52,119 nucleotides of DNA from Campylobacteraceae bacterium (lineage in GTDB: Bacteria; Campylobacterota; Campylobacteria; Campylobacterales; Sulfurovaceae): the NCBI GenBank assembly GCA_027024155.1, contig JALVTE010000016.1:1-52119 (forward strand). Reading direction: 5' to 3'. The notes beneath the pieces are model-generated. The model made no database searches. It was not told where the DNA came from and was given only the letters and a program-made list of their open reading frames with translations. Of this stretch, positions 1,317 to 15,745 are shown one piece after another (position 1 is the first letter of the stretch; every line of letters begins with the position of its first letter). A program made the position numbers and the translations under genes.

Positions 1317-2049
1317 TCACAAGCGAATAAATCATCTTCGCCGCCAATAAAAGTAGCAGTACAGCAATTAGCTTTTTAACCTGTGCAGGTGTTAATCGGT
1401 AATGCATTATTTTGTCACCCAAATAGCCACCCATAATTGCAGCTACCGTTACTGTGCCAAGTAGAACCCAATCCATCTTTACAAAGCTTAGGTATGTAGC
1501 AAAAGCTCCTAAAGATGAGAATGGAATAATAAAACTTACAGCATATGCTGCTTTTTTTGCATCGAAGCCTAAAAGTATTAAAAGTGGCATTATTAATGCT
1601 CCGCCACCTACTCCTATCATTCCAGATATTATACCTACAAAAAAGCCTATTAAAAATAGAATCCACGCTTTATCGTAAACTACTTTTGTTTCGCGTTTTG
1701 TATATAAAAGTAAACTAGCCGCAATTATTAAAAAGGCAACCAAAATCCACTTTACCACAACAACAGGCACAAATTGAGAACTCCATGCACCAATAGGTGT
1801 AGCAATTAAAATCGCAACAATTAATGGCAGAGCAAATTTAATATCTAAAACACCTCTAAAAAAGTTCATAATCGAAGCTGTAATTGTAGAAGAACTATTT
1901 ATAAAAAGCCCGATTGCTTTAGATAAATTCAGTGGCATACCCAGCATATTAAAAATAGGCACAAGCACAATAGCTGAACCTACTCCACCCATTGCAAAAA
2001 GGGTAGAGAGCCCCAAAGTTAGGGCAAAATAGAGTAGATAGTGCATCAT
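1312..2049 (-). CDS. TSUP-family (TauE/SafE) anion exporter
   Basis: A 245-residue inner-membrane protein with about eight hydrophobic segments and the duplicated glycine-rich pattern of the TauE/SafE (TSUP) family: GGVGSAIVLVPIF near residue 20 and GMIGVGGGALIMPLLILLG near residue 145. Members move sulfite, sulfoacetate, thiosulfate or similar sulfur anions across the membrane. Its ATG overlaps the stop of the upstream rhodanese gene by 4 nt (ATGA), so the two are translationally coupled. The neighbours (two rhodaneses and an SQR-like flavoprotein) point to a reduced-sulfur or sulfite substrate, but the substrate itself is inferred from context. Confidence 0.9.
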   Translation of the reverse strand: MMHYLLYFALTLGLSTLFAMGGVGSAIVLVPIFNMLGMPLNLSKAIGLFINSSSTITASIMNFFRGVLDIKFALPLIVAILIATPIGAWSSQFVPVVVVKWILVAFLIIAASLLLYTKRETKVVYDKAWILFLIGFFVGIISGMIGVGGGALIMPLLILLGFDAKKAAYAVSFIIPFSSLGAFATYLSFVKMDWVLLGTVTVAAIMGGYLGDKIMHYRLTPAQVKKLIAVLLLLLAAKMIYSLVS

Positions 2050-2408
2050 AAATTAATATCCTTTGCCATACCACCTTTTAATCTCTCCATTAAACCTAAA
2101 AGTCCGCCTACAAGATATTTAACATTAAAACCTTGCTCTGCTAAATAGACTCTTGCCATGTTAGAGCGGTCGCTGTGAGGACAAGCTACTACAATTAATT
2201 TATCTTTTGGAAGCTCATCCAATCTTGTTGGTAACTCATTTGCAGGAACTTTAAGCCCAAAATTAACTTGCCAAACTTTTGTCTCCATTGGAACCCTAAT
2301 ATCTACAAGCTCTGCCTCACCTTTATTGTAAGCCTCAATAAATTCATCTACCGAAATTCTAAAATTTTTCATCTCTTTTGGAACAATGTTCTCCGGAAAA
2401 TTTGCCAT
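2046..2408 (-). CDS. Single-domain rhodanese (sulfurtransferase), CPHSDR active loop
   Basis: A 120-residue cytoplasmic rhodanese-fold protein. It carries the N-terminal ELVDIR strand (residue 33 on) and a six-residue active-site loop starting at the catalytic Cys76 (CPHSDR), followed by the helix SNMARVYL and the C-terminal GGLLG motif. The Cys would carry persulfide sulfur. It is clearly paralogous to the rhodanese at 2556-2945, which has CPHYDR in the same place, so the pair arose by tandem duplication. It overlaps the TSUP exporter gene by 4 nt. A likely role is passing sulfane sulfur between the SQR-like enzyme and later steps, which is inference from the operon. Confidence 0.92.
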   Translation of the reverse strand: MANFPENIVPKEMKNFRISVDEFIEAYNKGEAELVDIRVPMETKVWQVNFGLKVPANELPTRLDELPKDKLIVVACPHSDRSNMARVYLAEQGFNVKYLVGGLLGLMERLKGGMAKDINL

Positions 2409-2448
2409 TTTTACATCCTTTGTTTTTTTAATTAGTTTTATTCTACCC

Positions 2449-2545
2449 GTAGGGGTAGACCTATGTGTCTGCCCGTTAGTTCATAATACTTTGATATTTT
2501 TAAAGCATTTGAAGCTAACGGGACGACACACAGGTCTGCCACTAC
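2449..2545. repeat. GTAG-headed REP pair in inverted orientation (BIME), between the two rhodanese genes
   Basis: Two 31-nt arms, 2449-2479 on plus and 2515-2545 on minus, are inverted copies of each other with about five mismatches. Each arm starts with GTAG and contains its own hairpin (GGGGTAGAC, CTATGT loop, GTCTGCCC). The tetranucleotide plus imperfect hairpin is the defining layout of REP elements moved by RAYT (TnpA-REP) transposases. A related single copy lies at 4757-4782. The element fills most of the 147-bp gap between the two rhodanese genes. The minus-facing arm runs straight into a 7-nt-period tract, 2541-2570, that holds the stop of the upstream rhodanese. Confidence 0.75.
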
Positions 2546-2555
2546 ATCCTATATC

Positions 2556-2945
2556 CTAACCTCTAACCTTAGCCATATAATCCCTTGCCTTATCACCACG
2601 CAAGTAATTTACAGCTCCAAGCAAGCCATCAGTTAAATAGCGTGCATTAAAGCCTTTTAGCTTTAAAAACAGTCTTGCAATTTCTGCTCTGTCGTAATGT
2701 GGACAAACAGTAACTATAGTTTTATTTTTATCTAACTCATCTATTCTGTTTGGCAATTCATTTAATGGAATATTTTTTCCAAATCCCAAATGCCACGCTT
2801 CGTACTCATCTTTAAATCGAATATCTATAATTTCAGCCTTACCATCTTCGTAAAGTTTAAGCATCTCATCTAGCTTAATCTTCATAGCTTTTCGCTCATC
2901 GTAATCGAAACCTTTTAAATAGTCATCAAAACTTATCTCTTTCAT
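2556..2945 (-). CDS. Single-domain rhodanese (sulfurtransferase), CPHYDR active loop
   Basis: A 129-residue rhodanese-fold protein with AEIIDIRFKDEYEAWHLGFG in the first half and the active loop CPHYDR beginning at Cys81, followed by AEIARLFLKLKGF. It shares the unusual Pro-His loop with the rhodanese at 2046-2408 but has a longer N-terminus (SFDDYLKGFDYDERKAMKIK). The last codons and stop (KVRG, TAG) lie in a tract that reads GGTTAGA GGTTAGG ATATAGG on the minus strand, part of the heptad-repeat phenomenon in this window. It lies 62 nt downstream of the SQR-like gene and is probably cotranscribed with it. Confidence 0.9.
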   Translation of the reverse strand: MKEISFDDYLKGFDYDERKAMKIKLDEMLKLYEDGKAEIIDIRFKDEYEAWHLGFGKNIPLNELPNRIDELDKNKTIVTVCPHYDRAEIARLFLKLKGFNARYLTDGLLGAVNYLRGDKARDYMAKVRG

Positions 2946-2963
2946 AATTCTCCTTTATTAATT

Positions 2964-3011
2964 GGTGCAGTAAGGAGACTGCACCCTACGCCTTCAACCT
3001 TCTACCTTCAC
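2964..3011 (-). repeat. REP hairpin plus heptad tract after the SQR-like gene
   Basis: On the minus strand, GTAG at 2989-2986 opens a hairpin with GGGTGCAGT and ACTGCACC arms around TCTCCTT (2964-2989). Just upstream, between the end of the SQR-like gene and the hairpin, the sequence runs GGTGAA, GGTAGAA, GGTTGAA, GGCGTAG, a near-perfect 7-nt period that includes the TGA stop of the flavoprotein gene. The combination of heptads followed by a GTAG hairpin recurs at 2515-2570 and 4757-4826. Confidence 0.65.
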
Positions 3012-4240
3012 CCTTTCTTGCCAAATTTATGCAATAGACTCTCTAACGCTTCTACTGCAATATCTGGTGGCATATGCCCATGAGTATAGTGGTATTCTTC
3101 ATCAAAGCCGGTTTTCATCATTTTTGCTATTGGTGAATGCCAAGCAAAATCATACTCACCGTTATAAAGTGCATTCGAATAAATCAAAATAGCACTAAAT
3201 CCACCCATATTCATAATACAAAATACTTCAGGGTTAAACTCAACCTTTTCATGCTCAATATCTTCGGCTTTTAAAATAGAGCTTACAACTACATCGGCTT
3301 GGTTAATTGCAATGTGTCCAAGTTTTGGTTGAGCTAAAGCACTTACATCTCCTGCAGCAAAGATATTATCAAAGCCGATATGTTTCATTGTTTCATCTAC
3401 AGGAATCCAACCTTTATCGTCGCCTAAATTGCTTTTTGCAATAAATTCAGGGGCAATATACGGCGGTATAATAATTGCCAAATCGCAATCCATACTGCTA
3501 CCGTCACTAAATATTACCTTATCTTTTGTAATTTCGACAAGCTCTTTTGCAGTTGTTAATTCAATACCATGCTCTTGCATAAGTTTAGCAACTGGTTCTC
3601 TTGCACCATCGCCAACATCTTCAAAGAAAATCTCTGCCGGAGAGAAGACATTAATTGTACTTTTATCTCGCTTGCCCTCTTTGCGTAAACGGTAATCCAT
3701 CATAAACATAATCTCACCAATAGGACCTTCGCATGGTGCTTTTAAATTTGGAGCTTCTACCATTGTGCCAAATTCGCTTTTTGCTGCTCCTGTTACTACA
3801 TTTCCACCCTCAAAGCTTTGCAAACGCTCATTTAATCTTTTTGCTTCGCTGTCGTCACAAACAGAGTAACCAAACTCTCTGTATCCTTTAATTGCATCAT
3901 AATCCTTAATAGCTCCAGAAGCGATTATTACATAATCATACGGCAATTTATCGCCGCTTTTTAAAAGCACCTCTTGGGTGTCGGTATTAATTAAATCAAC
4001 TTCACCCTGCACAAATGCTGCTGTGTGTTTTCTAGCTTGTGGTTCAAGATTAATATGCACATGTTCTAAACTTTTGCCATCAAATGCCACTTCTGGCAAT
4101 GCCGGTTTTTCTAAAGAGGTATCTCTTTTATCTATAATTGTTACCTCAAAATGGTAATCGTAATCGCTTAATCTATAGAGTGCTCTAAGCCCTGCAAAAC
4201 CACCACCTATTATTACAACTTTTTTTAAATTACTACTCAT
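3008..4240 (-). CDS. Sulfide:quinone oxidoreductase-like FAD flavoprotein
   Basis: A 410-residue flavoprotein of the SQR / flavocytochrome c sulfide dehydrogenase / type II NADH dehydrogenase superfamily. The N-terminal FAD-binding loop IGGGFAGL is at residues 11-18 and the second FAD contact, NIFAAGDVSAL, near 292-302. Three Cys fall at 128, 170 and 341, close to the three redox Cys of true SQRs; the 341 site reads EVFCIMNMGG. This favours sulfide oxidation with transfer of electrons to quinone, with the C-terminal region docking to the membrane. It heads a minus-strand operon with two rhodaneses and a sulfur-anion exporter, which fits. A related quinone-linked disulfide oxidoreductase is the alternative. 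A short palindrome lies upstream at 4261-4273. Confidence 0.8.
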   Translation of the reverse strand: MSSNLKKVVIIGGGFAGLRALYRLSDYDYHFEVTIIDKRDTSLEKPALPEVAFDGKSLEHVHINLEPQARKHTAAFVQGEVDLINTDTQEVLLKSGDKLPYDYVIIASGAIKDYDAIKGYREFGYSVCDDSEAKRLNERLQSFEGGNVVTGAAKSEFGTMVEAPNLKAPCEGPIGEIMFMMDYRLRKEGKRDKSTINVFSPAEIFFEDVGDGAREPVAKLMQEHGIELTTAKELVEITKDKVIFSDGSSMDCDLAIIIPPYIAPEFIAKSNLGDDKGWIPVDETMKHIGFDNIFAAGDVSALAQPKLGHIAINQADVVVSSILKAEDIEHEKVEFNPEVFCIMNMGGFSAILIYSNALYNGEYDFAWHSPIAKMMKTGFDEEYHYTHGHMPPDIAVEALESLLHKFGKKG

Positions 4241-4260
4241 GATTTTTCTCCTTTATTGAG

Positions 4261-4273
4261 TTACTGTCAGTAA
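4261..4273. promoter_or_regulatory. Palindrome upstream of the SQR-like gene, possible operator
   Basis: TTACTGTCAGTAA is a 13-bp perfect palindrome around one central base, 20 nt upstream of the flavoprotein start. Its half-sites TTACT and AGTAA match those of the TetR-gene operator at 10964-10981, with three instead of four bases between them. This suggests binding by a TetR-family dimer, although the different spacing may mean a different regulator. A transcription start has not been located. Confidence 0.4.
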
Positions 4274-4302
4274 ATTATACTCTTAAATTTAAACTCTTTT
4301 TG

Positions 4303-4617
4303 TTACTTATGTAACATCTCTTCAAACCGCCTCGTTATATCCTCGGCTTGAATGAGCCCTTCTATAAAAATCTTTCCATCTAAAACTAGAGTTGGGTCTT
4401 TTCGTATACCTAAAGCTATTGCATCTTCTACACTGCTGTTATAATTAAATTTCAAACGAATTGGCAAATGCTTTATTGCACAACTAAGCCTTTTTGAGAG
4501 CTTAGCACTAAGTACCCTATCTCCATAAATTGTACATTTATAGAGTGGTACATGCGTTAAAACTTCATTTAAAATTTCACCCTCTGCCATTTCGTGGCAA
4601 GCATCACCTATTATCAT
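4303..4617 (-). CDS. Small thioredoxin-fold protein without a CxxC motif
   Basis: A 104-residue protein if started at the ATG at 4615-4617, which has AAGG at good spacing. A GTG start ten codons upstream would run into a REP element and is less likely. The C-terminal half (DPTLVLDGKIFIEGLIQAED) has the cis-Pro strand and last helix of small thioredoxin-like proteins. The usual N-terminal CxxC is missing; single Cys occur at residues 7, 28 and 46 (GDACHEM, YKCTIY, LSCAIK). It may therefore be a thiol carrier or a 2Fe-2S type thioredoxin-fold protein. It sits alone upstream of the SQR operon, 62 nt before the flavoprotein start, in the same direction. Confidence 0.5.
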   Translation of the reverse strand: MIIGDACHEMAEGEILNEVLTHVPLYKCTIYGDRVLSAKLSKRLSCAIKHLPIRLKFNYNSSVEDAIALGIRKDPTLVLDGKIFIEGLIQAEDITRRFEEMLHK

Positions 4618-4647
4618 TTTTTTGCCTTTTTTAAAATACATAATCAC

Positions 4648-4714
4648 GTAGGGTCGATTTATCGACCATTAAATAGACATCCATCTCAATTATTGGTCGA
4701 TAAATCGACCCTAC
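4648..4714. repeat. Inverted pair of GTAG REP hairpins (BIME)
   Basis: The plus-strand copy at 4648-4667 reads GTAGGGTCGATTTATCGACC and an exact inverted copy lies at 4695-4714. Each copy is itself a hairpin (GGTCGA, TTTA, TCGACC). The 27-nt spacer (ATTAAATAGACATCCATCTC then AATTATT) is almost the same as in the element at 15827-15893, so the whole pair is one dispersed unit. Confidence 0.85.
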
Positions 4715-4756
4715 ACGTATATTAATATTTAAAATATATATGCCATTTTGGCATGT

Positions 4757-4826
4757 GGGGCGACACATAGGTCACCCCCTACAAACTACAAACTTGCAAC
4801 TTCAAACTTCAAGCTTTAAGCTTCCA
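4757..4826 (-). repeat. Single GTAG hairpin plus 7-nt-period array at the end of the RND gene
   Basis: Read on the minus strand, the RND gene ends in a run of heptads: AAGCTTA, AAGCTTG, AAGTTTG, AAGTTGC, AAGTTTG, TAGTTTG. This leads directly into GTAGGGGGTGACCTATGTGT, the head of a hairpin of the same type as 2449-2479. The TAA stop of the RND gene lies inside the first heptad. Next to it at 4742-4752 is a small separate hairpin (GCCATTTTGGC). Confidence 0.75.
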
Positions 4827-7800
4827 ACTCCTCTTCTACTTTCTCAATAGGATTTGACTTTTTATTTCTTGGGTCTGTTGCGTATGCGTACATTGGTACA
4901 TAAATTAATGTTAATAGTGTTCCTATCAATAAACCACCCACGGCAACATCTGCTAATGGTGAAAGACGCTCTAATCCGACTGCTTGCTCTAATGCTATTG
5001 GTATCATTCCTGCGATTGTTCCAAATGCTGTCATCATAACAGGACGGAAACGGACACGAACTGACTCAACTGCTGCATCAAATGGTGTTTTACCCTCTTT
5101 TTCATACTCTTTATAAAAGTCAATTAGTAAAACGGCATTTTTAATAATAATACCAAAGAGCAAGAGCAATCCAACCATCGATGGCATACAGCTAGGTTTA
5201 TGGAATATCAACATTCCCCAAGCAGCCCCAATCATAGAAAGAGGCAACACTAAAATCATAATCAGTCCAAGTCGAACAGACTCATAAATTGCAATTAAAA
5301 TCATTAATAAAATTACAACACCAAATCCGATTGCTTTAACCATTCTCTTAAAGCTATCGTTAAGTTGTGCAATATCACCCTCTTGAGTTACAATATATCC
5401 ATTTGTATCGACTTTTTTAAGAGCATTAACTGCATCTTCTGTAATATGTGTAACTGGTCGCTTAGAGCGGAAACCATTTACATCGATACTGTAGAGCATT
5501 TTATCTCGCTCAATTTTTGCCGGTACTAAGTGGCGTTTAATTGTTGCAACTTGACTAAGTGGTATTTGCCCATTTTTTGTACTAATTGGCAACATTTTCA
5601 AAGTTTCTATATTTTGACTAAATTTACCCTTTAAATATATTCTTGCAAACTGTGTCTTCATCGAAGTAAAGTTTGCTGCTAATGACGCCACTTGTCCATG
5701 CAGTGGTATTTGCGAGATTATCTGCATTGGCGTTAGCCCATAACTTAAAGCTTTATTATTATCGATTTTGAGCTCAATTTCACTAAAATCTCTATCCCAA
5801 CTTGTCGAAACAGATGTTAGCCCTTTAATATCTTTAATAGCATTTAGCACCTCTTTGGATTTAGAAGGCAATTCATGATAATCGCTCGATTTTATACGCA
5901 CATCTAATGGTGCTTTAATACTAGATAGTGCTGTTGCACCAAAGTCGTAAACATCATCTTTTTTAATACCATCAAGTTTTGCTAAGCGGTTTCTAATTTG
6001 TCCCTCTAACTGCCAAATTGTCGCATTTCTATCGAAACGATTTACAGCTGTAACTGTAATTGTTGCTTCTGTTGGTAAATTACCACTACCAAGGCTTAGT
6101 ACACCTGGTTCACTACCAAATGCTATAGAGCTTCTAACAAGCCAAGGCTGTTTGTTTAACCAATTTAAGAATGGTTGCAACTTCTTCTCAGCACTATCAA
6201 CATTTTCATTTGCACTAAATGCAATTTGTGCCTTAATAATCCCTGTATCCATTGGTGGCATTACATCTTTACCAATTAATGGCATAATATTTTTAACACT
6301 TAAAACTAGCGTTGCCATTACAATCATTGTTAAAAACATTCTTCTTAATGCCCACCATTTTCCATTAGAGAATTTCAGCACCCCAATATATGGTACAACC
6401 AAACGACCAATCGTATTTTCATAAAGTGCTTCGAACCACTGCTCTATCTTTGTTTTACCTGTACCATTTTTATAAAGCCAAGTTGATAGGCTAGGAATAA
6501 AGGTAATTGATAAAAAGTAACTCACAAGTAGTGCAATTATTAGTGTCTCTATTAATGGTCTAAAAATCTTTTGCGGAAAATCTCCAACGAACATTAAAGG
6601 GAAAAGTACAGCAATAGTTGCGATAGTTCCTGCAAAAATTGGCGAAATAACCTCTTTTGTTCCCTTTTTTACAGCTGTTGTTAAATCTTCGTGCTCTTCA
6701 TTTAAGTGCCGTTCAATGTTCTCTAACACAACAACGGCATCATCAGTTAGCATTCCAAGGGCTAAAATAATTGCTGTATAAATTACAATATTAAGCTCTC
6801 CGCCTGTTAGCCAAATAATCGCCATTGTCGCAAAAAATACCATTGGAATAGAAAGTCCTGCTGCAATAATTGCACGGAAATTTCCCAAGAATATCATAAT
6901 AACAATTAGTGTATAAACAACTGCATCACGCAGAGCTTCTAGCATATTTGTATTGGCTGTTTCAATCAAATCTCGTTGTGTATCAGATATGCTAAAGTTG
7001 ATATTTGGATAGAGCTTTTGCAACTTTTTCATCTCTGCTCTTGCTGCTTTAGATACACTTAGCACACTTCCGCCCGGAGCTCTTTGAACTGCCAAAGCTA
7101 TACCTTTTTTGCCATTTCCAATATATCCACTTGTTCTCTTTTTATAAGACCAACTAATTTTTGCAATATCACCTAAGCGTAAATTTGGCATAACAGGCAG
7201 TTGTTCAAGCGCTTGAATTTGGTCTTTTTCTCCATAATATGTAATAGTGTAAAAGTTATCTTTCCCTTTAACAAAACCTACCGGCGAGTCACGGTTTATA
7301 GAAAAAATAGCTTTTGCAAGTTTCGTAAAATCTACACCATATTTTTTAGCTTTGAATGGGTCTACCTCTATATTTATAGCACTCTGGTACCCACCAAATA
7401 CTTCGACATTACCAATTTTTTCATTCCCTAATAAGTATGGTTTTATAAAACTATCTGCAATTTTTCTAATATCTGCAACAGTAATATTGCTATCTTTTTT
7501 AGGAGTAAGGGTCATTACATCTACAGGTAGCGTAAAATCTCCGGCTGTATAAACCGCAGGCGTTACATTTTTTGGTAACCGACCTTTAGCAATAGATAAT
7601 GCATTCGATACATCAACAGCCGCAGCTTCTAAGCCTTTTTTATACTCAAATTCAGCCTTAACAATCGAAAAGTTTGCAACGTTTACAGAGCTTACATCTC
7701 GAACCATTGCAATACGAGAAATCTCCTCTTCAATAGGCTTACTTACTGTACTTGCCGCAACCTCAGCGGTAGCCCCTGGAACTTGTGTAATAACCACAAC

Positions 7801-7926
7801 TTGCGGTCTGTTTGCATCAGGAAAGAGGTTTTTAGGCAATACTATAAGTGCCACAACTCCAATGATAAAAAATGCCAATATCAAACTGTAAAGTTGATAG
7901 GGTCGTTTATGGAAATAATCAAACAT
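4816..7926 (-). CDS. RND-family efflux pump inner-membrane permease
   Basis: A 1036-residue AcrB/MexB-type proton-driven pump, full length for the family. The N-terminal membrane segment (YSLILAFFIIGVVALIVLP) is followed by two large periplasmic loops and two bundles of membrane segments. The proton-relay motif LGMLTDDAVVVLENIERHL is present, with the paired Asp in transmembrane segment 4. The C-terminal half repeats the fold (LLLLFGIIIKNAVLLIDFYKEY). Its ATG lies 9 nt downstream of the membrane-fusion-protein stop. With the upstream adaptor, TolC-like channel and TetR regulator it forms a complete tripartite efflux operon. The substrate (hydrophobic drugs, solvents or other) cannot be read from sequence; the motifs fit HAE-type rather than heavy-metal pumps. 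Confidence 0.95.
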   Translation of the reverse strand: MFDYFHKRPYQLYSLILAFFIIGVVALIVLPKNLFPDANRPQVVVITQVPGATAEVAASTVSKPIEEEISRIAMVRDVSSVNVANFSIVKAEFEYKKGLEAAAVDVSNALSIAKGRLPKNVTPAVYTAGDFTLPVDVMTLTPKKDSNITVADIRKIADSFIKPYLLGNEKIGNVEVFGGYQSAINIEVDPFKAKKYGVDFTKLAKAIFSINRDSPVGFVKGKDNFYTITYYGEKDQIQALEQLPVMPNLRLGDIAKISWSYKKRTSGYIGNGKKGIALAVQRAPGGSVLSVSKAARAEMKKLQKLYPNINFSISDTQRDLIETANTNMLEALRDAVVYTLIVIMIFLGNFRAIIAAGLSIPMVFFATMAIIWLTGGELNIVIYTAIILALGMLTDDAVVVLENIERHLNEEHEDLTTAVKKGTKEVISPIFAGTIATIAVLFPLMFVGDFPQKIFRPLIETLIIALLVSYFLSITFIPSLSTWLYKNGTGKTKIEQWFEALYENTIGRLVVPYIGVLKFSNGKWWALRRMFLTMIVMATLVLSVKNIMPLIGKDVMPPMDTGIIKAQIAFSANENVDSAEKKLQPFLNWLNKQPWLVRSSIAFGSEPGVLSLGSGNLPTEATITVTAVNRFDRNATIWQLEGQIRNRLAKLDGIKKDDVYDFGATALSSIKAPLDVRIKSSDYHELPSKSKEVLNAIKDIKGLTSVSTSWDRDFSEIELKIDNNKALSYGLTPMQIISQIPLHGQVASLAANFTSMKTQFARIYLKGKFSQNIETLKMLPISTKNGQIPLSQVATIKRHLVPAKIERDKMLYSIDVNGFRSKRPVTHITEDAVNALKKVDTNGYIVTQEGDIAQLNDSFKRMVKAIGFGVVILLMILIAIYESVRLGLIMILVLPLSMIGAAWGMLIFHKPSCMPSMVGLLLLFGIIIKNAVLLIDFYKEYEKEGKTPFDAAVESVRVRFRPVMMTAFGTIAGMIPIALEQAVGLERLSPLADVAVGGLLIGTLLTLIYVPMYAYATDPRNKKSNPIEKVEEELEA

Positions 7927-7935
7927 CTCTTATCC

Positions 7936-8982
7936 TTACTTTGAATTTTTAACAATCACAGGATAACCACTTATCAAGCGAAGTAAAATATCGGGTTTAG
8001 CAACTACAATAGTTTTACCCTCTAAATTATTACTTACAACTGCACCCTCTTGTGCACTATTAACAATATTAACCTCTATTGGTTTTACCTTTTTACCATT
8101 TAACTCTAGCACATAATTTTTGCCATCTCTATTTAAAATAGCATCTAATGGTAATTTAATCGCTTTACCTTTAAACAGAACAACACTTGCATCAACTCTT
8201 TGACCTGCTGGTACAAATTTGTCGATATCTGCTCTGTACTCGTTAAGTCCATTAAATGTTGTATTAAGTGAACTTAAAGGATACTCTTTCCCCTCAAACT
8301 TAAGAGCTTTTGCCGAATTTGGTAATCGCACAATTAAATAACTTTTAGCTTTAGCAGTAAGTTTCATTAATGGCTTACCTGGCATTGCCAAATCTCCAAC
8401 ACTTACCATACTTTTAGCTACAATTCCATCGCTAGGAGCTTTTACAACTGCGTAAGATAAGTTGTCTAAAATATTAATCTTTTTAGCTTTTAGCGAAGCA
8501 ATTTTAGCTTTTAAAGAGTCTATTTTAACCCTTTCACCATCAAATTGCTCTTTTGTTGCACCTCCAACTTTTAGCAATTTTGCTGTAGTTTTATGTGTAC
8601 TTATAGCATTTGCCAAAGCCACTTTTGCACTATTTATAGAGTTATCGATAGACGCTACAGAAGCCTTTAGTGATGTTGCATCAACTTTTACTAAAACATC
8701 GCCTTTTTTAACAATATCTCCACTCTTTTTAGCAAATAAAACTCGCCCTGGCACTTTAGAAGCCACCATAATATTGCTATCGCTTCCCGCCAAAGCAATA
8801 GTTGGCAGAGTCAATTCTACATCACCAATTTTTGGATGCATTGTACTTACAATTACAGCATACTCATTTGCCACAGGCGTCTTCGCCTCACTAGCTTTTC
8901 TCTTTTTAATTAATTTAATACCGCCAACTACAAGTAAGGCAACTATTAAAATAAATACAATAAACTTAATAATTTTCTTCAT
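7936..8982 (-). CDS. RND efflux periplasmic adaptor (membrane fusion protein)
   Basis: A 348-residue adaptor linking the RND permease to the outer-membrane channel. It has one N-terminal membrane anchor (IIKFIVFILIVALLVVGGIK). The two halves of the barrel-sandwich (lipoyl-like) domain are recognisable as GDIVKKGDVLVKVD and YAVVKAPSDGIVAKSMVSVGD. Between them is a helical hairpin of about 75 residues (SLKASVASIDNSINSAKVA onward), followed by a beta-barrel and membrane-proximal domain. It lies 9 nt before the permease gene. The 109-nt gap to the tolC gene upstream holds a repeat structure (9003-9094). Confidence 0.93.
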   Translation of the reverse strand: MKKIIKFIVFILIVALLVVGGIKLIKKRKASEAKTPVANEYAVIVSTMHPKIGDVELTLPTIALAGSDSNIMVASKVPGRVLFAKKSGDIVKKGDVLVKVDATSLKASVASIDNSINSAKVALANAISTHKTTAKLLKVGGATKEQFDGERVKIDSLKAKIASLKAKKINILDNLSYAVVKAPSDGIVAKSMVSVGDLAMPGKPLMKLTAKAKSYLIVRLPNSAKALKFEGKEYPLSSLNTTFNGLNEYRADIDKFVPAGQRVDASVVLFKGKAIKLPLDAILNRDGKNYVLELNGKKVKPIEVNIVNSAQEGAVVSNNLEGKTIVVAKPDILLRLISGYPVIVKNSK

Positions 8983-9002
8983 ATTCTCCCCTTTTTTTTA
9001 AG

Positions 9003-9094
9003 CTGAAAGCTAAAAGCGATAAGCTTAAAGCTATATATATTGCGGCGAAGCCGCACCATTGGCTTTTAGCTTTATGCTTGAAGCCTTTTGCTTA
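9003..9094. repeat. Heptad arrays flanking a GC-rich hairpin between tolC and the adaptor gene
   Basis: The gap holds a symmetrical structure. On plus, AGCTGAA, AGCTAAA, AGCGATA, AGCTTAA, AGCTATA runs at a strict 7-nt period. Then comes a hairpin TGCGGC GAA GCCGCA at 9041-9055. It is followed by TGGCTTT, TAGCTTT, ATGCTTG, AAGCCTT, TTGCTTA, again at 7-nt period and the reverse complement of the first array in character. The tolC stop codon is at the edge of the second array. The same arrangement recurs at 44245-44427. Confidence 0.7.
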
Positions 9095-10366
9095 CTTAAC
9101 GATTTGTCTAAAATTATTACCATAAACAAATGCCAACTGTGCCAATGTTTGCCAATATGATGCTTGTACTTTGTAAGTATCTGCTTTGGCACCATAATAT
9201 GCATCTATATATCTTAAGTACTCCTCTATAGGCATTCTGCCCGCTTCGTAAGAAGCTCTAGCAATTCCTAAAAGTTGTTTTTCGTTTCGTACATTCTCTT
9301 TTGCATAGCCGATAGATTGGCGAATATACTTCATCTGCTCTCTCATAGCATCTGCTTTTGCTCTAAGCTCACTTGCTGTTTTTTTAATATCTATTTGGCT
9401 CTTCATATAAGCTAATTTAGCCTTTTGCACACTTTTTCTCTGAGGCATATCCAGAAGTGGCATATTTAACATTACACCAATCGAACTATAGTTGCTATGT
9501 ACACTTCTTTTCCCTATATAGTCACTTCCGTAACTTCTGGTATAGTTTGCTTTTAAGGCAACTGACGGATAGTAAAGTTTCTCCCTCTGTGCCTTCATAT
9601 TTAAATAATCAGCTCTACTCTTAGCACGAAGTGGAGCAACAGGAGCTAGTGAAGCCACATGGTAACTGCCAACTTTTCGCATTCTAACAGGTCTTTTTAG
9701 ACTAATGCCTGTTAAAGATTTTATTAAAGCTTTTAAATTTTGCTCTTGTATTTTAATATTGTTAATAGCAATTTTAATTTTGTTAAGCCCCTCTTTTACC
9801 TTAAACTCTGCAACCTTTGGCTTACGCCCAAGTGCCACTTGAGCTCGTGTAATCGCAAGTGTTTGACTAAGCGTTCTCTTTTTTTGAAGCAAACTACTCT
9901 TTAGCCCCTCTAAGTATCGCCAATTAGCATTAGCACCAACAATAGCTGCTTCGTTTTTAAGTAAATCTACTCGTCTTTTTGCACGAGCCGAAGCTTGCAT
10001 TGCCTCTGCTTTATGAGCAAGCGTAAAGAGTGACTTAACATATATAGGCATAGATAAATTAAGCCCAACTCTTGCTATATTTTGGCTAATTGGCAAAGGC
10101 TTGTGCTTTGCTAAAATTTTAGCCGTATCTGTTGGAGAAATCGGACGCATAGCCGTAGGATACGAATAGTGCGTATAGCTAGCAAACGCATTTACCTTTG
10201 GCCAAAATTGAGCCTTAACCATCGCTTGTGCATTTTTAGCTTGCGATATACTCAATCTATCACTCTGCATCTGATAATGGCTCTGCAACCCATTAAACAG
10301 TTGCCCCATGGTTGTAGCATGCGATAAAACAACTACACTCGATATTAAAATACTCTTCTTTAACAT
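9092..10366 (-). CDS. TolC-family outer-membrane efflux channel
   Basis: A 424-residue outer-membrane factor of the TolC/OprM family, with an N-terminal signal peptide (MLKKSILISSVVVLSHATT). Two repeats of long alpha-helical regions and short beta segments are seen, as usual for trimeric channel-tunnels: the first around residues 100-220, the second from about residue 310 (DMPQRKSVQKAKLAYMKSQI) to the end, where YEAGRMPIEEYL is a family-typical stretch. Its start overlaps the tetR gene by 7 nt. It would connect with the adaptor and permease downstream to cross the periplasm. Confidence 0.9.
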   Translation of the reverse strand: MLKKSILISSVVVLSHATTMGQLFNGLQSHYQMQSDRLSISQAKNAQAMVKAQFWPKVNAFASYTHYSYPTAMRPISPTDTAKILAKHKPLPISQNIARVGLNLSMPIYVKSLFTLAHKAEAMQASARAKRRVDLLKNEAAIVGANANWRYLEGLKSSLLQKKRTLSQTLAITRAQVALGRKPKVAEFKVKEGLNKIKIAINNIKIQEQNLKALIKSLTGISLKRPVRMRKVGSYHVASLAPVAPLRAKSRADYLNMKAQREKLYYPSVALKANYTRSYGSDYIGKRSVHSNYSSIGVMLNMPLLDMPQRKSVQKAKLAYMKSQIDIKKTASELRAKADAMREQMKYIRQSIGYAKENVRNEKQLLGIARASYEAGRMPIEEYLRYIDAYYGAKADTYKVQASYWQTLAQLAFVYGNNFRQIVK

Positions 10367-10953
10367 TTTAAAGCCTTTATAATTTTACTTGCAAGATTTG
10401 GAATAATATCTTCTAAATCTACATCTATATTTTTAATATCCTTCAAATTTGCCATTACCACCTCTCTTAGTTTTTTTGTTGTTCTGTAGTTAATTAATGG
10501 TGTTACAATCATCATTTGCACCATAAAAGGGTTCTCTTTCTCAAAAAGATTCTCTGCCTCACCATTTTGCAAAATTTTGCTAAGTTTTTGTAAATTCAAA
10601 GACATTTGCTTAGAACAACTAGCCGGCATATTCATAGCCCCATCTGCCAACTCTCTTGCAAAAATAGCACTAAAGCACGGCTTGTCTACTAAAAACTTAC
10701 CAAAACTCTCTATATACTCCCTTAAAGCTTCTATTGGCTTACTATCATCAATTTTATCGATAATTTTAGCCAACTCGCCAAACCGGCTACAAAGTACCGC
10801 TTCGTAAAGTGCAAACTTATCTTTAAAATGATAATAAATTGCAGCCTTACTAACCCCAACCTCTTTAGCTACATCATCCAGCGTTGCTTTATCGTACCCA
10901 ACTTCGCTAAAATATTTCGATGCAACTTTAATTATCTTCTCTTTTTTACTCAT
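10360..10953 (-). CDS. TetR/AcrR-family transcriptional repressor of the efflux operon
   Basis: A 197-residue TetR-family regulator. The N-terminal helix-turn-helix is clear: FSEVGYDKATLDDVAKEVGV, then SKAAIYYHFKDKFALYEAVL, residues about 14-53. The C-terminal part is the ligand-binding and dimer domain and is variable, as expected. It is the first gene of the tetR-tolC-adaptor-permease operon and overlaps tolC. A 7-bp-arm palindrome lies 10 nt upstream of its start, which makes repression of its own operon, released by a pump substrate, the likely mode of control. Confidence 0.93.
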   Translation of the reverse strand: MSKKEKIIKVASKYFSEVGYDKATLDDVAKEVGVSKAAIYYHFKDKFALYEAVLCSRFGELAKIIDKIDDSKPIEALREYIESFGKFLVDKPCFSAIFARELADGAMNMPASCSKQMSLNLQKLSKILQNGEAENLFEKENPFMVQMMIVTPLINYRTTKKLREVVMANLKDIKNIDVDLEDIIPNLASKIIKALKC

Positions 10954-10963
10954 AACAACCTTT

Positions 10964-10981
10964 ACTTACTCGTCAGTAAGT
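10964..10981. promoter_or_regulatory. Palindromic operator for the TetR regulator
   Basis: ACTTACT CGTC AGTAAGT has perfect 7-bp arms around a 4-bp centre and sits just upstream of the tetR ribosome-binding site AAAGG. Arms and spacing suit a TetR-family dimer. The same gap must also hold the promoter of the divergent outer-membrane protein gene at 11108, so one bound repressor could affect both directions. Confidence 0.7.
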
Positions 10982-11107
10982 TTATCATATTTATACTTGT
11001 TATGTCAAGAGTATTAATAAAATTTTATAAATTTCTACATAACTTATGCAATTTCTAATAAGAATAAGTATAAAATATTTCTATTAACTGAAGGATTAAC
11101 AAACACA

Positions 11108-12520
11108 ATGAGTAAAAAACTATTAATACCAATAATATCTTGCTTTACGCTTTTATCTGCGGATATTTTAAAATCAGAAGCTACCATAGGTTATGAAGAG
11201 TGGAAATTGCCAAAAAATGAAAAATTAGGTATGACACATTTTGGTTTACTATTTAATTTTACACCTAATTGGTACGAAGGAATCGAAATATATGGTGCAA
11301 GTAGAGGCAAAAGAGGTGGCTTTTTTGCTTTAGGTGTAGATAGTGGTTTAAAAACTAATTTTAGTAAATATATAGATTTAAAAAGTGGTATCTTTATTGG
11401 TGCTGGAGGTGGAGGTGCTGCTCCACAAGGTGGTGGTTTAATGTTAAGACCCTATGTAGAGATGCTCTTAAAAAATAAAAACTTCTCTATAGGTATAGGT
11501 GCAAGTAGAGTCAAATTTCCAAATGGGAATATTAACTCTTCACAAATATATAGCTCTTTATATATTCCTCTATACTCCAAAAGCAAGCAAAGTGATACAT
11601 CGAATTATGATGAGTGGAATTTACTATTAAAAAGTGGCATTTACAAGGTCGATTCATCTTCTAAAACTCTATCTGGCAAGAGCATAGAAAATATGAAATG
11701 GATAGGTGTAGAGTTACAAAAAATATATCCAAATAATCTATTTACTTCAATATCTATGTCAGCCGCTGGTGGTGGAGCTTCGGCTGGATATATGGAGACT
11801 TTTGCAGGCTTGGGGTATCAACTTAAAAATAAAAATATACCTATTTATCTACAATTTCAATCGGAATTAGGCTTAGGCGGTGGAGGTAAAATCAATAGTG
11901 GTGGAGGTGCACTATATAGATTTAGAACAGGAATATACACAAATATTTACAAAGATTTAACTATTGGCTTAGAAGCTTCACACTTAAGCTCTTTTAACAG
12001 TAAATTTAAAACAGATAGTTTAGGAGTATCTATAGGATATGACTCTTTTTATACATTAAATGCTAACTCTTCAGCTATTAATTTAGATATAAGATTAATA
12101 GAGAAATCTCACTTAAAAGCTCAAACAAAACAGTTGAAAAAGCATAGAGTAGATATGCTAGGTATTGCTATAGATAGATACTTAAATAACTATTTCTATC
12201 TAACAGGTCAAACATTCTGGGCATACAAAGGCAAAGCTGGAGGCTATGCCGAAGGTTTATTAGGCTTGGGAGCAAAAGTTTCTATTTATAATAAATTTAA
12301 TATTTGGACAGAAGCATTAATTGGTGCCGGAGGGGGAGGTGGAGTAAAGACTAATGGCGGTGCCATTCTCTCTGCAAATATCGGTTTATCATATAAAATT
12401 AATAAAAAACTAAGTTTGAAAATAGGCACAGGCTATACCAAAAGTTTACACAAAGGGTTATCTACAGTTGATACTACTATGCAACTAGAATATAAATTTA
12501 ATCTATTTGAGAAAAAATAG
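11108..12520 (+). CDS. Outer-membrane protein of unknown function with three glycine-rich internal repeats
   Basis: A 470-residue protein with a signal peptide (MSKKLLIPIISCFTLLSA) and alternating hydrophobic strands ending in an aromatic-rich C-terminus (MQLEYKFNLFEKK), as expected for an outer-membrane beta-barrel. It contains three copies of a unit spaced about 155 residues apart. Each has a GxxGG(Y/F) turn followed about 30 residues later by a poly-Gly loop: GAGGGGAAPQGGG at 98-110, LGGGGKINSGGG at 256-267 and GAGGGGGVKTNGGA at 406-419. I do not recognise the family. The gene stands alone, divergent from the efflux operon, with a GAAGGA ribosome-binding site somewhat far from the ATG. Function is unknown. 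Confidence 0.75.
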   Translation: MSKKLLIPIISCFTLLSADILKSEATIGYEEWKLPKNEKLGMTHFGLLFNFTPNWYEGIEIYGASRGKRGGFFALGVDSGLKTNFSKYIDLKSGIFIGAGGGGAAPQGGGLMLRPYVEMLLKNKNFSIGIGASRVKFPNGNINSSQIYSSLYIPLYSKSKQSDTSNYDEWNLLLKSGIYKVDSSSKTLSGKSIENMKWIGVELQKIYPNNLFTSISMSAAGGGASAGYMETFAGLGYQLKNKNIPIYLQFQSELGLGGGGKINSGGGALYRFRTGIYTNIYKDLTIGLEASHLSSFNSKFKTDSLGVSIGYDSFYTLNANSSAINLDIRLIEKSHLKAQTKQLKKHRVDMLGIAIDRYLNNYFYLTGQTFWAYKGKAGGYAEGLLGLGAKVSIYNKFNIWTEALIGAGGGGGVKTNGGAILSANIGLSYKINKKLSLKIGTGYTKSLHKGLSTVDTTMQLEYKFNLFEKK

Positions 12521-12546
12521 CGATTTTTCTTTTAAGTTTCTTTATA

Positions 12547-12552
12547 TATAAT
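12547..12552 (+). promoter_or_regulatory. -10 promoter element of the c-heme protein gene
   Basis: TATAAT at 12547-12552 lies 34 nt upstream of the ATG at 12587, in a T-rich context typical of campylobacterial sigma-70 promoters, which often lack a clear -35 box. An AAAAGG ribosome-binding site lies between it and the start. Confidence 0.5.
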
Positions 12553-12586
12553 TCTATCTTAAATATAAAATAAGAAAAGGTTATAT

Positions 12587-13171
12587 ATGAAGAGAGTGAT
12601 TATTCCTATGATTATAGCAAGTGCAATTTATGCAAATGGCACTGAGGCTAATACAACTAAAGCACAAATGTCACCAGTAGTTTTAAAAGGTGTATCGGCT
12701 ATTAAAATGCTTGGCGGAGAGTTAAAAAAGAATTTAAAAGCTAAGTTTAAAGAGGATAAAAGTGGCTTAAAAGCTGTTAATTTTTGTGCAACAAGAGCTG
12801 TAGAAATTACAGCAGAAGTTCAGAAAAAGCTTCCTAGAGGAGTGATAGTAAGAAGAGTGGCAAGCAAATATAGAAACGAAGCAAACAAACCAGATAGCAT
12901 TGATACAAAAGTTTTAGAGCAATTTCAAAAAGAGATAGATAATAAAACTTTTGTAAAAAAACCAACAGTAGTTGATGTTAATGGTACAAAAAGAGTTTAT
13001 GTACCAATTTTAGTATCAAAAGCTTGTATAAAATGTCATGGTAAAAATATTGACCCTAAAATTGCTACTGTGATTAAAAAATACTATCCAAACGATAAAG
13101 CAACAGGCTTTAAAGTAGGCGACTTAAGAGGAGCTATGGTAGCAGAAATCAAAGACAAACCTAAAAAATAA
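12587..13171 (+). CDS. Periplasmic c-type heme protein with Tll0287-like (DUF3365) domain
   Basis: A 194-residue exported protein. The N-terminal signal (MKRVIIPMIIASAIYANG) is followed by a Tll0287-like domain, recognisable from the NFCATRAVEIT segment near residue 65 and VRRVASKYRNEANKPD near 88. A single heme-attachment site CIKCH is at residues 147-151, so the protein carries one covalent c-heme in the periplasm. Related domains act as heme-based redox or gas sensors and are often fused to signalling modules. Here the domain is alone, so it may be an electron carrier or a separate sensor. It has its own promoter-like element and a strong downstream hairpin, which suggests a monocistronic unit. 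Confidence 0.85.
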   Translation: MKRVIIPMIIASAIYANGTEANTTKAQMSPVVLKGVSAIKMLGGELKKNLKAKFKEDKSGLKAVNFCATRAVEITAEVQKKLPRGVIVRRVASKYRNEANKPDSIDTKVLEQFQKEIDNKTFVKKPTVVDVNGTKRVYVPILVSKACIKCHGKNIDPKIATVIKKYYPNDKATGFKVGDLRGAMVAEIKDKPKK

Positions 13172-13189
13172 TTTTATACCTTGCACTAT

Positions 13190-13222
13190 TTTAATTTTCA
13201 CTCTTAATGAGTGAAAATTAAA
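13190..13222 (+). terminator. 14-bp perfect hairpin downstream of the c-heme gene
   Basis: TTTAATTTTCACTC at 13190-13203 and its exact reverse complement at 13209-13222 enclose a 5-nt loop (TTAAT). It lies 18 nt after the stop codon and is likely a transcription terminator. It lacks a clear T-run on the plus strand (CCTTTC follows) and is AT-rich, so it may instead protect the 3' end or act in both directions. Confidence 0.6.
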
Positions 13223-13334
13223 CCTTTCAAATCTACAATTTTTTTAAAAAATCATAACAAAATGTAACCTAAGTAGCATCTAATCAGACAAAAATTAGCT
13301 ATATTAAAAATACCTTGATATAAAAGGATTAAAA

Positions 13335-13892
13335 ATGTATAGTAATGAACAAAAAAATATAATATTAAAAATTGCAAAAGATGCCATAAAAGAAGCTGTT
13401 TTAAATAAACAAATAATAGATAAAGAAGCTTTAATTCTAAACTACCCTTGGCTAAAAGCCAAAGGTGCAGTTTTTGTAACAATTAACGAATTTAACTCGC
13501 TAAGAGGGTGTATAGGCTCTATTATTGCACACCAAAGTTTAATAGACGATATTATCCAAAATGCAAAATCAGCAGCACTTAACGACCCACGCTTTAAGCC
13601 AGTTAGCAAAGAAGAGTTAGAGAATTTAGAGGTAGAAGTATCTATTTTAACCGAACCAAAACCTCTGCCTTACGATAATATAGATGATTTACGAAGCAAA
13701 ATAAAACCAGGAATCCACGGAGTAATTTTACAATACAATGAGTATCAAGCTACATACTTACCAAGTGTTTGGGAGCAAATAAGCAGCTTCGATGAGTTTT
13801 TTAGCTCGCTATGTATGAAAGCAGGAATGAGTCCGAACTGTTTAACTCTACACCCAAACATTTATGTTTACGAAGCAATAAAAGTGAGTTAG
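13335..13892 (+). CDS. amrA: AmmeMemoRadiSam system protein A (AMMECR1 domain)
   Basis: A 185-residue AMMECR1-family protein. The hallmark LRGCIGS motif with its conserved Cys is near residue 57, followed by the helical part IIQNAKSAALNDPRF and the PLPYDNIDDL region. It is the first of three genes (AMMECR1, radical SAM enzyme, Memo) that co-occur in many bacteria and archaea. The AMMECR1 domain is structurally known but its biochemical role is unsettled. An AAAGGA ribosome-binding site precedes the ATG. The 3' end runs into a 7-nt-period repeat that holds the stop codon. Confidence 0.93.
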   Translation: MYSNEQKNIILKIAKDAIKEAVLNKQIIDKEALILNYPWLKAKGAVFVTINEFNSLRGCIGSIIAHQSLIDDIIQNAKSAALNDPRFKPVSKEELENLEVEVSILTEPKPLPYDNIDDLRSKIKPGIHGVILQYNEYQATYLPSVWEQISSFDEFFSSLCMKAGMSPNCLTLHPNIYVYEAIKVS

Positions 13893-13914
13893 TAAGTAGT
13901 GGTTAGTGCTTAGT
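13887..13914 (+). repeat. Heptad array covering the stop codon of the AMMECR1 gene
   Basis: Four consecutive 7-nt units, AGTTAGT, AAGTAGT, GGTTAGT and GCTTAGT, start within the last codons of the AMMECR1 gene and run into the gap before the radical SAM gene. The stop TAG at 13890-13892 is inside the first unit. This is the only plus-strand-gene example; the others lie at the ends of minus-strand genes. Confidence 0.6.
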
Positions 13915-13937
13915 TTATGGATTTGAAAGGATTAGAT

Positions 13938-14936
13938 ATGAGCAGAGTTCACAAATTTTATAAAAATGAGGGCAACAAAATAGAGTGCCTGCTCTGTCGT
14001 CACTACTGCAAATTAAAAGATGGGCAAGTTGGTATTTGTGGTGTTAATAAAAACGAAAATGGCAAGCTTGTTAATTTGGTTTATGGAAAAGTCAGTGCAA
14101 TAAATATTGACCCAATAGAGAAGAAACCACTCTACCACTTTTTGCCAGGCACTACATCGCTAAGTATAGGTACAGTTGGGTGCAATTTTCAGTGTCCGTT
14201 TTGTCAAAATTGGCAAATTTCTCAAAGCAAATCGTTAGATGGCTCTTACGATGTAACGCCAGAGCAACTTGTAAGGTTAGCCGTAGAGAAAGGGTGCAAA
14301 AGTATATCGTACACATATAATGAGCCGACAATTTTCTACCCATTTGCAAAAGATGTAGCACTCTTAGCAAAAAAAGCAGGGCTTAAAAATGTTTTTGTAA
14401 GTAACGGTTTTGAGAGTCCGGAAGTTATAGACGATATGGTAGGTGTAATCGATGCCTTTAATATCGATATAAAAGGCTTTAAAGATGAGTATTACAAAAA
14501 ATACTTAAAAGGCGGACTACAAGGTGTATTAGATACCCTAAAACGACTTAAAGAGAGAAACTTTTGGGTAGAGTGCACAACTCTAATAGTACCAGGAGAT
14601 AACGACAGCGACGAAGAGTTACAAGATATAGCAAACTTTATAGCAAAAGAGTTAGATGTTAATACCCCATGGCATATAAGTGCCTTCCACCCAGATTATA
14701 AAGTAAACGACAAGGGTGCAACACCTATCGAGACTCTGCAAAGAGCATACAATATAGGCAAAGAGGCAGGGCTTAACTTTATCTATATGGGAAATATCTT
14801 AAACGACAACATAACTTATTGCCCAAATTGTAATGAGAGTTTAATAGAACGAGTAGGTTTTAGCGTAAGAAAAAATATATTAAATAACGGCAAGTGCCCA
14901 AAATGTGGTACAGAAATTGCCGGAGTTTGGAGGTAA
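13938..14936 (+). CDS. amrS: AmmeMemoRadiSam system radical SAM enzyme
   Basis: A 332-residue radical S-adenosylmethionine enzyme. The cluster-binding motif CNFQCPFC (C82, C86, C89) binds a 4Fe-4S cluster. The N-terminus has four conserved Cys of this subfamily (C17, C20, C24, C34), and the C-terminus has a zinc-ribbon-like pair of CPxC motifs. The start at 13938 is preferred over an ATG seven codons upstream because AAAGGA is well spaced before it. The substrate is not known. The gene lies between the AMMECR1 and Memo genes; the Memo start comes 2 nt after its stop. The three proteins are presumed to act in one modification pathway. Confidence 0.92.
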   Translation: MSRVHKFYKNEGNKIECLLCRHYCKLKDGQVGICGVNKNENGKLVNLVYGKVSAINIDPIEKKPLYHFLPGTTSLSIGTVGCNFQCPFCQNWQISQSKSLDGSYDVTPEQLVRLAVEKGCKSISYTYNEPTIFYPFAKDVALLAKKAGLKNVFVSNGFESPEVIDDMVGVIDAFNIDIKGFKDEYYKKYLKGGLQGVLDTLKRLKERNFWVECTTLIVPGDNDSDEELQDIANFIAKELDVNTPWHISAFHPDYKVNDKGATPIETLQRAYNIGKEAGLNFIYMGNILNDNITYCPNCNESLIERVGFSVRKNILNNGKCPKCGTEIAGVWR

Positions 14937-14938
14937 AT

Positions 14939-15745
14939 ATGAGTATAAGAGTAGCAGGAAATGCAGGGTCTTTTTACCCAAATAGTGCTATTGAAATAGA
15001 GAGTTTAATAGAGATGTTTAACAATGCACTTGATAGTAATTTAAAAGACAAAGAGTTACTAAAATTAGAACCAGAAGCGATAATATCCCCACATGCAGGG
15101 TACATATATAGTGGCTTTACAGCAAATTTTGCACATAGAGTTTTAGCAAATAAAAAGGCAAAAAGAGTAGTAGTAATAGGACCTAGCCACCATGTCTATT
15201 TTAAAGGTATAAGTGGCTCATTTTACGACAAATATCAAACACCATTAGGCGATATAACTATAGATAGAGAGTATTTGCATGTGATGAAACAACTATTTGA
15301 TATAGGTTTCGTAGCAGAGGCACACAAATTAGAGCACTCTACAGAGACACAAATGCCATTTATCAAGTACTATCAACCAAATGTAGAAGTTATAGAGTTA
15401 ATTTATGGCGATGTAGATTATAAAGAGTTGGCAAAAGTTATAGATTGGCTACTACAAGATAGCTTAACTACAGTTGTAATAAGTAGCGACTTAAGCCACT
15501 TCTACACCGAAGAGAGAGCTCATAGCTTAGATAGCATATGTATAAATGGTATAGAAAAATTAGACAACGATATTTTAGATATGGGATGCGAAGCATGCGG
15601 AATAGTAGGCATAAAAGCATTAGTAGAAAATGCAAAAGATGAAAATCTAAAAAGCACAATACTAGACTACAGAACAAGTGCAGATATAACAAACGACAAA
15701 GAACGAGTAGTCGGCTACCTCAGCGTAGCATTTACAAACGATTAA
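14939..15745 (+). CDS. amrB: AmmeMemoRadiSam system protein B (Memo family)
   Basis: A 268-residue Memo-family protein, related in fold to class III nonheme-iron extradiol dioxygenases. Metal- or substrate-site residues are visible in SPHAGYIYSG near residue 51, GPSHHVYFKG near 82, and SSDLSHF near 185. The start at 14939 is chosen because GGAGG stands 5 nt before it; a longer reading frame would overlap the radical SAM gene. It is the last gene of the three-gene unit. Function in bacteria is unknown; human Memo binds copper, which offers only a weak hint. Confidence 0.92.
   Translation: MSIRVAGNAGSFYPNSAIEIESLIEMFNNALDSNLKDKELLKLEPEAIISPHAGYIYSGFTANFAHRVLANKKAKRVVVIGPSHHVYFKGISGSFYDKYQTPLGDITIDREYLHVMKQLFDIGFVAEAHKLEHSTETQMPFIKYYQPNVEVIELIYGDVDYKELAKVIDWLLQDSLTTVVISSDLSHFYTEERAHSLDSICINGIEKLDNDILDMGCEACGIVGIKALVENAKDENLKSTILDYRTSADITNDKERVVGYLSVAFTND

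Follow-up and report, generated by a model that had tools for sequence, protein, structure and literature searches.

A predicted outer-membrane protein of the Campylobacterota with three homologous eight-strand modules and a recurrent glycine rim

A gene on the forward strand of contig JALVTE010000016.1 encodes a protein composed of three homologous modules, each of about 140 residues (135-150) and eight predicted β strands. The gene lies in the window, by which we mean the whole 52,119-nucleotide stretch of DNA that was analyzed. The modules of this protein are only 18-20% identical to each other, and despite this divergence the same Gly rim is kept in all three copies. The features discussed below, with their positions in the window, are as follows.

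11108-12520, + strand: gene for the three-module outer-membrane protein; ATG start, 470 amino acids plus stop
11108..11161, + strand: signal-peptide-like N terminus, residues 1-18; judged by eye in the sequence
11177..11575, + strand: module 1, eight-strand unit; module profile match 5.1e-40
11306..11320, + strand: module 1 GxRGG turn, strands 3/4, residues 67-71; G67, R69, G70, and G71 invariant in the 10-row alignment
11399..11437, + strand: module 1 Gly rim, strands 5-6, residues 98-110; G98, G100-G103, A105, Q107, G108, and G110 invariant
11609..12043, + strand: module 2, eight-strand unit; module profile match 1.3e-37
11774..11788, + strand: module 2 Gly turn, strands 3/4, residues 223-227; G223 and G227 invariant
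11870..11908, + strand: module 2 Gly rim, strands 5-6, residues 255-267; G255, G258-G260, G266, and G267 invariant
12086..12508, + strand: module 3, eight-strand unit, modeled; module profile match 1.6e-46, pLDDT 80.5
12230..12244, + strand: module 3 GxxGG turn, strands 3/4, residues 375-379; G375, G378, and G379 invariant
12323..12361, + strand: module 3 Gly rim, strands 5-6, residues 406-418; G406, G409-G411, and G418 invariant
12458..12499, + strand: last strand, residues 451-464, with invariant F464; from the alignment and the module model

The explanation that we propose for these features is that the chain would be an integral outer-membrane protein consisting of three tandem OmpA-like eight-strand meanders (24 strands), produced by one old triplication. 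Each copy would most likely close into its own small, filled barrel. The barrels, joined by periplasmic linkers of 11-13 residues, would stand next to one another, forming a pseudo-trimer within one chain. The upper ends of strands 3-6 in each barrel would present a smooth Gly rim, nearly free of side chains, on the cell surface. A surface polysaccharide could dock at this threefold rim or exit there, much as GfcD accompanies a Wza-type exporter in group 4 capsules. Taken whole (tandem OmpA-like triple, three barrels, and Gly rim as polysaccharide surface), this explanation appears to us evenly balanced between right and wrong.

The threefold repeat and its history

The open reading frame at 11108-12520 is genuine and is conserved across relatives, and proteins of this family are 450-530 amino acids in size. 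A first-pass annotation, made from the sequence without database searches, had described three internal repeats of about 155 residues with Gly motifs, too regular to be due to chance. The motifs of the three modules correspond as G67-G71, G223-G227, and G375-G379, and again as G98-G110, G255-G267, and G406-G418, with a period between motifs of 157 and then 151 residues. In an alignment of ten relatives, 33 of the 52 invariant columns are Gly, most of which cluster at the upper ends of strands 3-6 in each module. The Gly loops thus sit at the equivalent place of each repeat, as had been suggested, namely at the tops of hairpins 3-4 and 5-6.

Similarity between the modules was measured first within the single protein, where all three pairwise scores between modules (z = 7.4, 10.1, and 9.9) exceeded those of every one of 1000 shuffles. 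When runs of Gly were masked, these scores were reached by 66, 57, and 2 of 1000 shuffles, which indicates that within a single protein the similarity rests mostly on glycine. Such a near loss of signal is what would be expected of a Gly-rich porin that otherwise carries no repeats. However, profiles built from the family match each other over 141-152 columns, at 1.4e-16 for modules 1 and 2, 7e-19 for modules 1 and 3, and 3.4e-38 for modules 2 and 3, and these matches persist over the whole module when every Gly is masked (1.7e-10, 5.4e-11, and 1.6e-25 for the same pairs). In control comparisons using 60 column shuffles per pair, the best scores were 21, 18, and 23 versus real scores of 93, 103, and 209, and reversed module profiles gave no match. 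A mere effect of composition is therefore virtually excluded, and chance or composition can be ruled out as the source of the repeat. The core module profiles were derived from 32 of 39 rows; five divergent rows were profiled apart, and two genes cut by contig ends (L024 and L057) were dropped.

These comparisons uphold the threefold repeat, its Gly motifs, and its excess over chance. The proposed period also holds (151-157 residues), but the extent of the similar segments, put at about 50 residues, does not. Because the profile matches run end to end, the repeat is longer than those segments and covers the whole module of about 140 residues.

The age of the triplication was assessed using a tree that contains all 96 modules of 32 proteins. 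In it, each module position corresponds to one clade of exactly 32 members, with support values of 0.999, 0.832, and 0.807 for modules 1, 2, and 3, respectively. This position-wise monophyly implies that the copies predate the spread of the family and that no exchange between positions has occurred since. Judged from the sequences, the triplication is an old, single event.

The number of modules is also constant. A search with the module profile of open reading frames in the neighborhoods of 37 regions matched 39 of them, and 36 carry exactly three modules. Of the other three, two are pieces of a single broken gene (L093), and in the third (L094) a contig end truncates the gene. Among 175 genomes of the same bacterial family, module matches are confined to the same 15 genomes that hold the whole gene, and no gene with one or two modules was found there except for pieces at contig ends. 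The broken copy (L093:7643-9162, genome G670) is present as two open reading frames beside a gene that, by eye, resembles groEL. In genome G568, two divergent paralogs lie back to back (L083:160-3296); one belongs to the main type, and the other to a second type that is common to L089 and L090.

A divergent subfamily (L038, L055, L056, L091, and L092) keeps three modules, but most Gly motifs are missing from modules 2 and 3. By profile comparison, similarity of its module 1 to modules 2 and 3 is no longer detectable (E = 0.36 and 0.18), and that between modules 2 and 3 is retained (7.7e-6). Each divergent module matches the main-family module of equal position (7e-28, 4.3e-16, and 5e-18). This subfamily offers a natural experiment on the purpose of the Gly rim.

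Fold of the module and number of barrels

The repeating unit had been taken to be a β-hairpin module. The triplication stands, whereas the unit is larger than supposed, being an eight-strand OmpA-like structure equivalent to four hairpins. Module 3 was modeled by AF2 from six modules, those of the window protein and its sibling, and the model has exactly eight strands (pLDDT 80.5, pTM 0.72). A full-length model from two sequences gave a pLDDT of 27.3, and strand borders in modules 1 and 2 were transferred by homology from the modeled module 3. The top fold matches of this model in the PDB are eight-strand outer-membrane barrels: the OprF N-domain (Z = 14.0, rmsd 2.8 over 126 residues), the designed barrel 6x9z (Z = 13.9), OmpA (Z = 13.5), and NspA (Z = 13.2). 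Among the matches listed, small barrels and larger porins predominate and a few soluble barrels rank below them; the best E value with Foldseek was 5.7e-7.

The Pfam family OMP_b-brl (PF13505) was matched at E ≤ 0.1 by seven of 33 separate modules. The best match (E = 3.2e-5, 24.6 bits; 20 of the 33 modules were scanned one by one) did not reach the curated cut-off of 28.7 bits, and all five module matches viewed individually fall under that cut-off. Most strands show alternating hydrophobic and polar residues, and in strands 3-5 of module 1 the inward faces are more conserved than the outward faces (entropy 1.0-1.1 versus 1.7-2.2 bits). The last strand of the protein, which includes F464, is presumably β-signal-like. 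Together, the module model, the fold matches, and the module profiles support the earlier description of this protein as an outer-membrane barrel.

If the N and C termini are periplasmic, as is usual, then the Gly-rich turns are outside and the linkers inside. Given the signal-peptide-like N terminus and the meander rule, the Gly rim very probably lies on the cell surface. The Gly-rich turns are short, and several show almost no variation in length. Connections within modules comprise 3-10 residues in the window protein and 0-14 residues across the family (37 rows). Length and variability are greatest in the linkers between modules (12-47 and 8-22 residues in the same 37 rows), which in the window protein consist of 13 residues and, between modules 2 and 3, 11 residues. 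Most outer-membrane proteins have long and variable outer loops, and the layout suggested here is the reverse.

We favor the interpretation that three small barrels close separately in one chain, rather than one large barrel being formed, and we consider this moderately probable. It is favored by the OmpA-like model of the unit, by the lack of any loop big enough to plug a 24-strand pore, and by the occurrence of long variable linkers only at module borders. The isolated module, however, may close in the model only because its neighboring modules are missing.

The alternative, which seems unlikely to us, is one continuous 24-strand barrel. Strand 8 of each unit would then pair with the first strand of the unit that follows, and the sheet would close between strands 24 and 1, placing the three Gly rims at 120 degrees around a wide pore that is shut or gated by a partner such as an OPX ring. 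A closed sheet would fix the number of modules, in agreement with the constancy of three modules among intact genes and the lack of modules outside three-module genes in the 175 genomes. The conserved inward strand faces also suit such a barrel, as does the shortness of the linker between modules 2 and 3 in the window protein. Strand covariation, which is weak (37 of 39 rows, Neff 31; AUC 0.72 on known neighbors), places the pair formed by strand 8 of module 2 and strand 1 of module 3 at percentile 96, but the other two pairs of the 24-strand ring are at percentiles 41 and 14. By the same weak measure (Neff 31), the pairs that would close single units are at percentiles 61, 98, and 74. The absence of a plug or long loop further opposes a single large barrel, as do the modeling of the isolated unit as an OmpA-like barrel and the location of the most variable connections at both module borders.

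Similarly unlikely is the fuller version of this arrangement, in which exact triplication of an eight-strand unit has produced a plugless 24-strand barrel whose pore is closed or gated by a periplasmic partner (an OPX ring in genomes that have one) and whose mouth is lined by the three rims. In any single 24-strand barrel, repetition of a complete eight-strand unit would have given rise to a large barrel. The plugless form, if it exists, would represent an outer-membrane translocon of a new type and a naturally occurring large barrel that arose via whole-barrel duplication.

If instead the favored interpretation of three separate barrels is true, then the chain itself would fix a pseudo-trimer of the smallest outer-membrane barrel. 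The protein would be a clean test object for the folding of multi-barrel proteins by BAM, and it would also test whether a small barrel gains function only when tripled.

Distribution, neighborhoods, and a possible polysaccharide link

The presence of the gene across the phylum is patchy. It was found in 15 of 175 genomes of the source organism's own bacterial family, in 23 of 228 genomes of a second family, in four of 44 genomes of a third, and in 17 genomes of a phylum sample of 397. The reach of the protein family is stated here within this one phylum. A scan of genome contigs with the single sequence, which finds close relatives only, matched the sibling genome alone. No relative of the three-module gene was found among plasmids or viral contigs, and on these grounds a mobile or viral origin was rejected.

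The source genome is a 2.15-Mb draft of 123 contigs (97.45% complete) that carries one copy of the gene. Upstream lies a divergent efflux operon with TetR, OEP/TolC-type, HlyD-type, and AcrB-type genes. Downstream (window 12587-15745), a Tll0287-like gene precedes genes for AMMECR1, radical-SAM, and Memo proteins. No OPX gene is among these neighbors. Gene order at the sibling locus (L014) is identical to that of the window, including this downstream group, and the nine genes compared (window 4816-15745) are 89-98% identical. The three-module gene is the least conserved of the nine, at 89% against 92-98% for its neighbors, as is expected of a surface protein.

Neighborhoods of the gene at 37 loci differ widely and include many unrelated settings (by eye, dxr/tsaD, metE/metK, frd, and ksgA among others), and no neighborhood conserved across the phylum was found among them. 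At seven of the 37 loci (L049, L050, L078, L080, L084, L094, and L097), a Poly_export/SLBB protein (OPX, Wza-type) is encoded no more than three genes away, with a Wzz-type PCP gene beside the exporter. The OPX gene was confirmed by Pfam at L049, L050, L078, L080, and L097, and at L084 and L094 by a match to the OPX protein of L097. The OPX is of the longer type at six of the seven loci, that of L084 being cut by a contig end. At L078, the genes for the outer-membrane protein, SLT, OPX, and PCP run in one direction; at L049, all genes likewise run in the same direction, with an IS-like pair in between (by eye). At the other five loci the gene converges on the exporter genes and lies outside their operon. 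The L078 region (1417-9536) encodes, all in one direction, a polysaccharide deacetylase/GHL13 protein, a Wzz-type protein, an OPX with a GfcC-like tail, an SLT lysozyme-type protein, and the three-module protein. We take the deacetylase/GHL13 gene to be of PgaB-like architecture.

Two further loci (L046 and L057) lie, by eye, amid glycosyltransferase-like genes. The polysaccharide-linked loci make up two tree clades, one of L046, L049, L057, and L078 and the other of L050, L080, L084, and L097; L094, which is cut short, is not in the tree. Association with the long OPX protein was also found at the level of genomes, in one bacterial family and one genus. In the second bacterial family, a long OPX protein is present in 12 of the 23 genomes with the gene versus 24 of the 205 without it (Fisher P = 1.6e-5, ancestry ignored). 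Within one genus of 135 genomes, the corresponding counts are nine of 11 versus 16 of 124 (Fisher P = 2.8e-6, ancestry ignored), and in eight of those nine genomes the gene is located elsewhere on the chromosome from the long OPX gene.

No co-occurrence with exporter genes was found in the source organism's own bacterial family (12 of 15 genomes with the gene versus 116 of 160 without it, P = 0.76). In this family, Poly_export proteins occur in 128 of 175 genomes, and their absence from the source genome reflects either a real loss or a draft gap. No Poly_export (PF02563) protein was found in the source genome or in three others that carry the gene (G008, G025, and G568). An obligatory Wza partner is therefore ruled out for the window's genome.

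A role in polysaccharide biology is thus a lead for two clades and one genus and not a finding for the window's protein. For the family at large we advance such a role tentatively, and for the protein in its own genome it is doubtful. Of comparable standing to the family-wide role, and likewise short of an even chance, is the possibility that the three barrels belong to a surface protein that has no particular connection with polysaccharide. It could be an adhesin, a receptor, or an envelope stabilizer, which are the functions that small barrels such as those of the OmpA/Ail/NspA type mostly perform, and the exporter genes would then be hitchhiking in variable regions of surface genes. This would account for the 30 of 37 loci with no exporter gene within three genes, as well as for the four gene-bearing genomes with no Poly_export protein. 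Patchy presence and a faster rate of change than that of neighboring genes also fit an accessory surface protein. However, two separate tree clades are wholly polysaccharide-linked (the contexts of L046 and L057 being judged by eye), and the gene correlates with long OPX even when it resides elsewhere in the genome. Moreover, the surface turns are very short and conserved, unlike those of most adhesins. Under either architecture, three barrels or one, an unnamed family acquires a role that can be tested, namely one alongside polysaccharide exporters in two clades.

Comparison with known systems

Searches of Pfam, NCBIfam, PHROGs, and PDB sequences gave nothing over cut-off for the whole protein. 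The initial failure to recognize a family was therefore correct at this level, although separate modules match OMP_b-brl weakly. The Pfam family for GfcD/YjbH gave no match, and a whole-protein Pfam scan (E ≤ 10) returned only two other families. DUF2490 (PF10677) was rejected as a candidate: it scored 16.1 bits over 30 residues versus a curated cut-off of 29.8, and a search for this family gave no match in the source genome. The protein family was not found in the titles or the beginnings of abstracts of literature on multi-barrels, OPX partners, and this bacterial group.

A 2021 study in PNAS by Solan and colleagues reportedly found multi-barrel chains to be restricted to particular lineages and to consist predominantly of eight-strand barrels. 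According to PMC11494523, outer-membrane chains with more than one barrel were described as a class in 2021, and GfcD with its homologs, having 12 + 13 strands, forms the largest cluster of that class. This source and PMC8592465 present GfcD as a multi-barrel protein that is encoded in a capsule operon with a Wza-type exporter and is proposed to aid polysaccharide export. According to PMC9601211 and PMC9603273, the barrel partners of OPX proteins in Myxococcus (EpsX/WzpX) are 18-strand proteins. A 2022 survey associates barrel partners mainly with short OPX proteins, 93% being with an OPX of ≤280 amino acids (PMC9601211). This speaks against the polysaccharide link, since the exporter near the gene is of the longer type at six of the seven loci found here. 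PMC6340704 considers how barrels may have grown from an eight-strand ancestor.

The window family resembles multi-barrel chains, which carry more than one barrel unit, in that the window protein has three homologous units. It differs by its fixed number of three copies and shared Gly rim, with separate closure modeled for one unit. With GfcD/YjbH as described above, the likeness is that of a multi-barrel outer-membrane protein encoded, at some of the loci examined here, with a Wza-type exporter. In contrast to its 12 + 13 strands and periplasmic middle domain, the window protein would have three equal eight-strand units and no such domain. Like EpsX/WzpX, the family has an outer-membrane barrel gene near OPX and PCP genes (at L049, L078, and other loci), whereas those proteins are single 18-strand barrels, mostly with short OPX, rather than three eight-strand units (24 strands). 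OmpA, OprF, and NspA share with the modeled module its eight strands, with fold matches of Z 13-14. They are, however, single barrels with long variable loops and not three in a row with short, conserved, Gly-rich turns. These comparisons identify a separate, unnamed family of the already known multi-barrel kind, which the 2021 survey may already contain.
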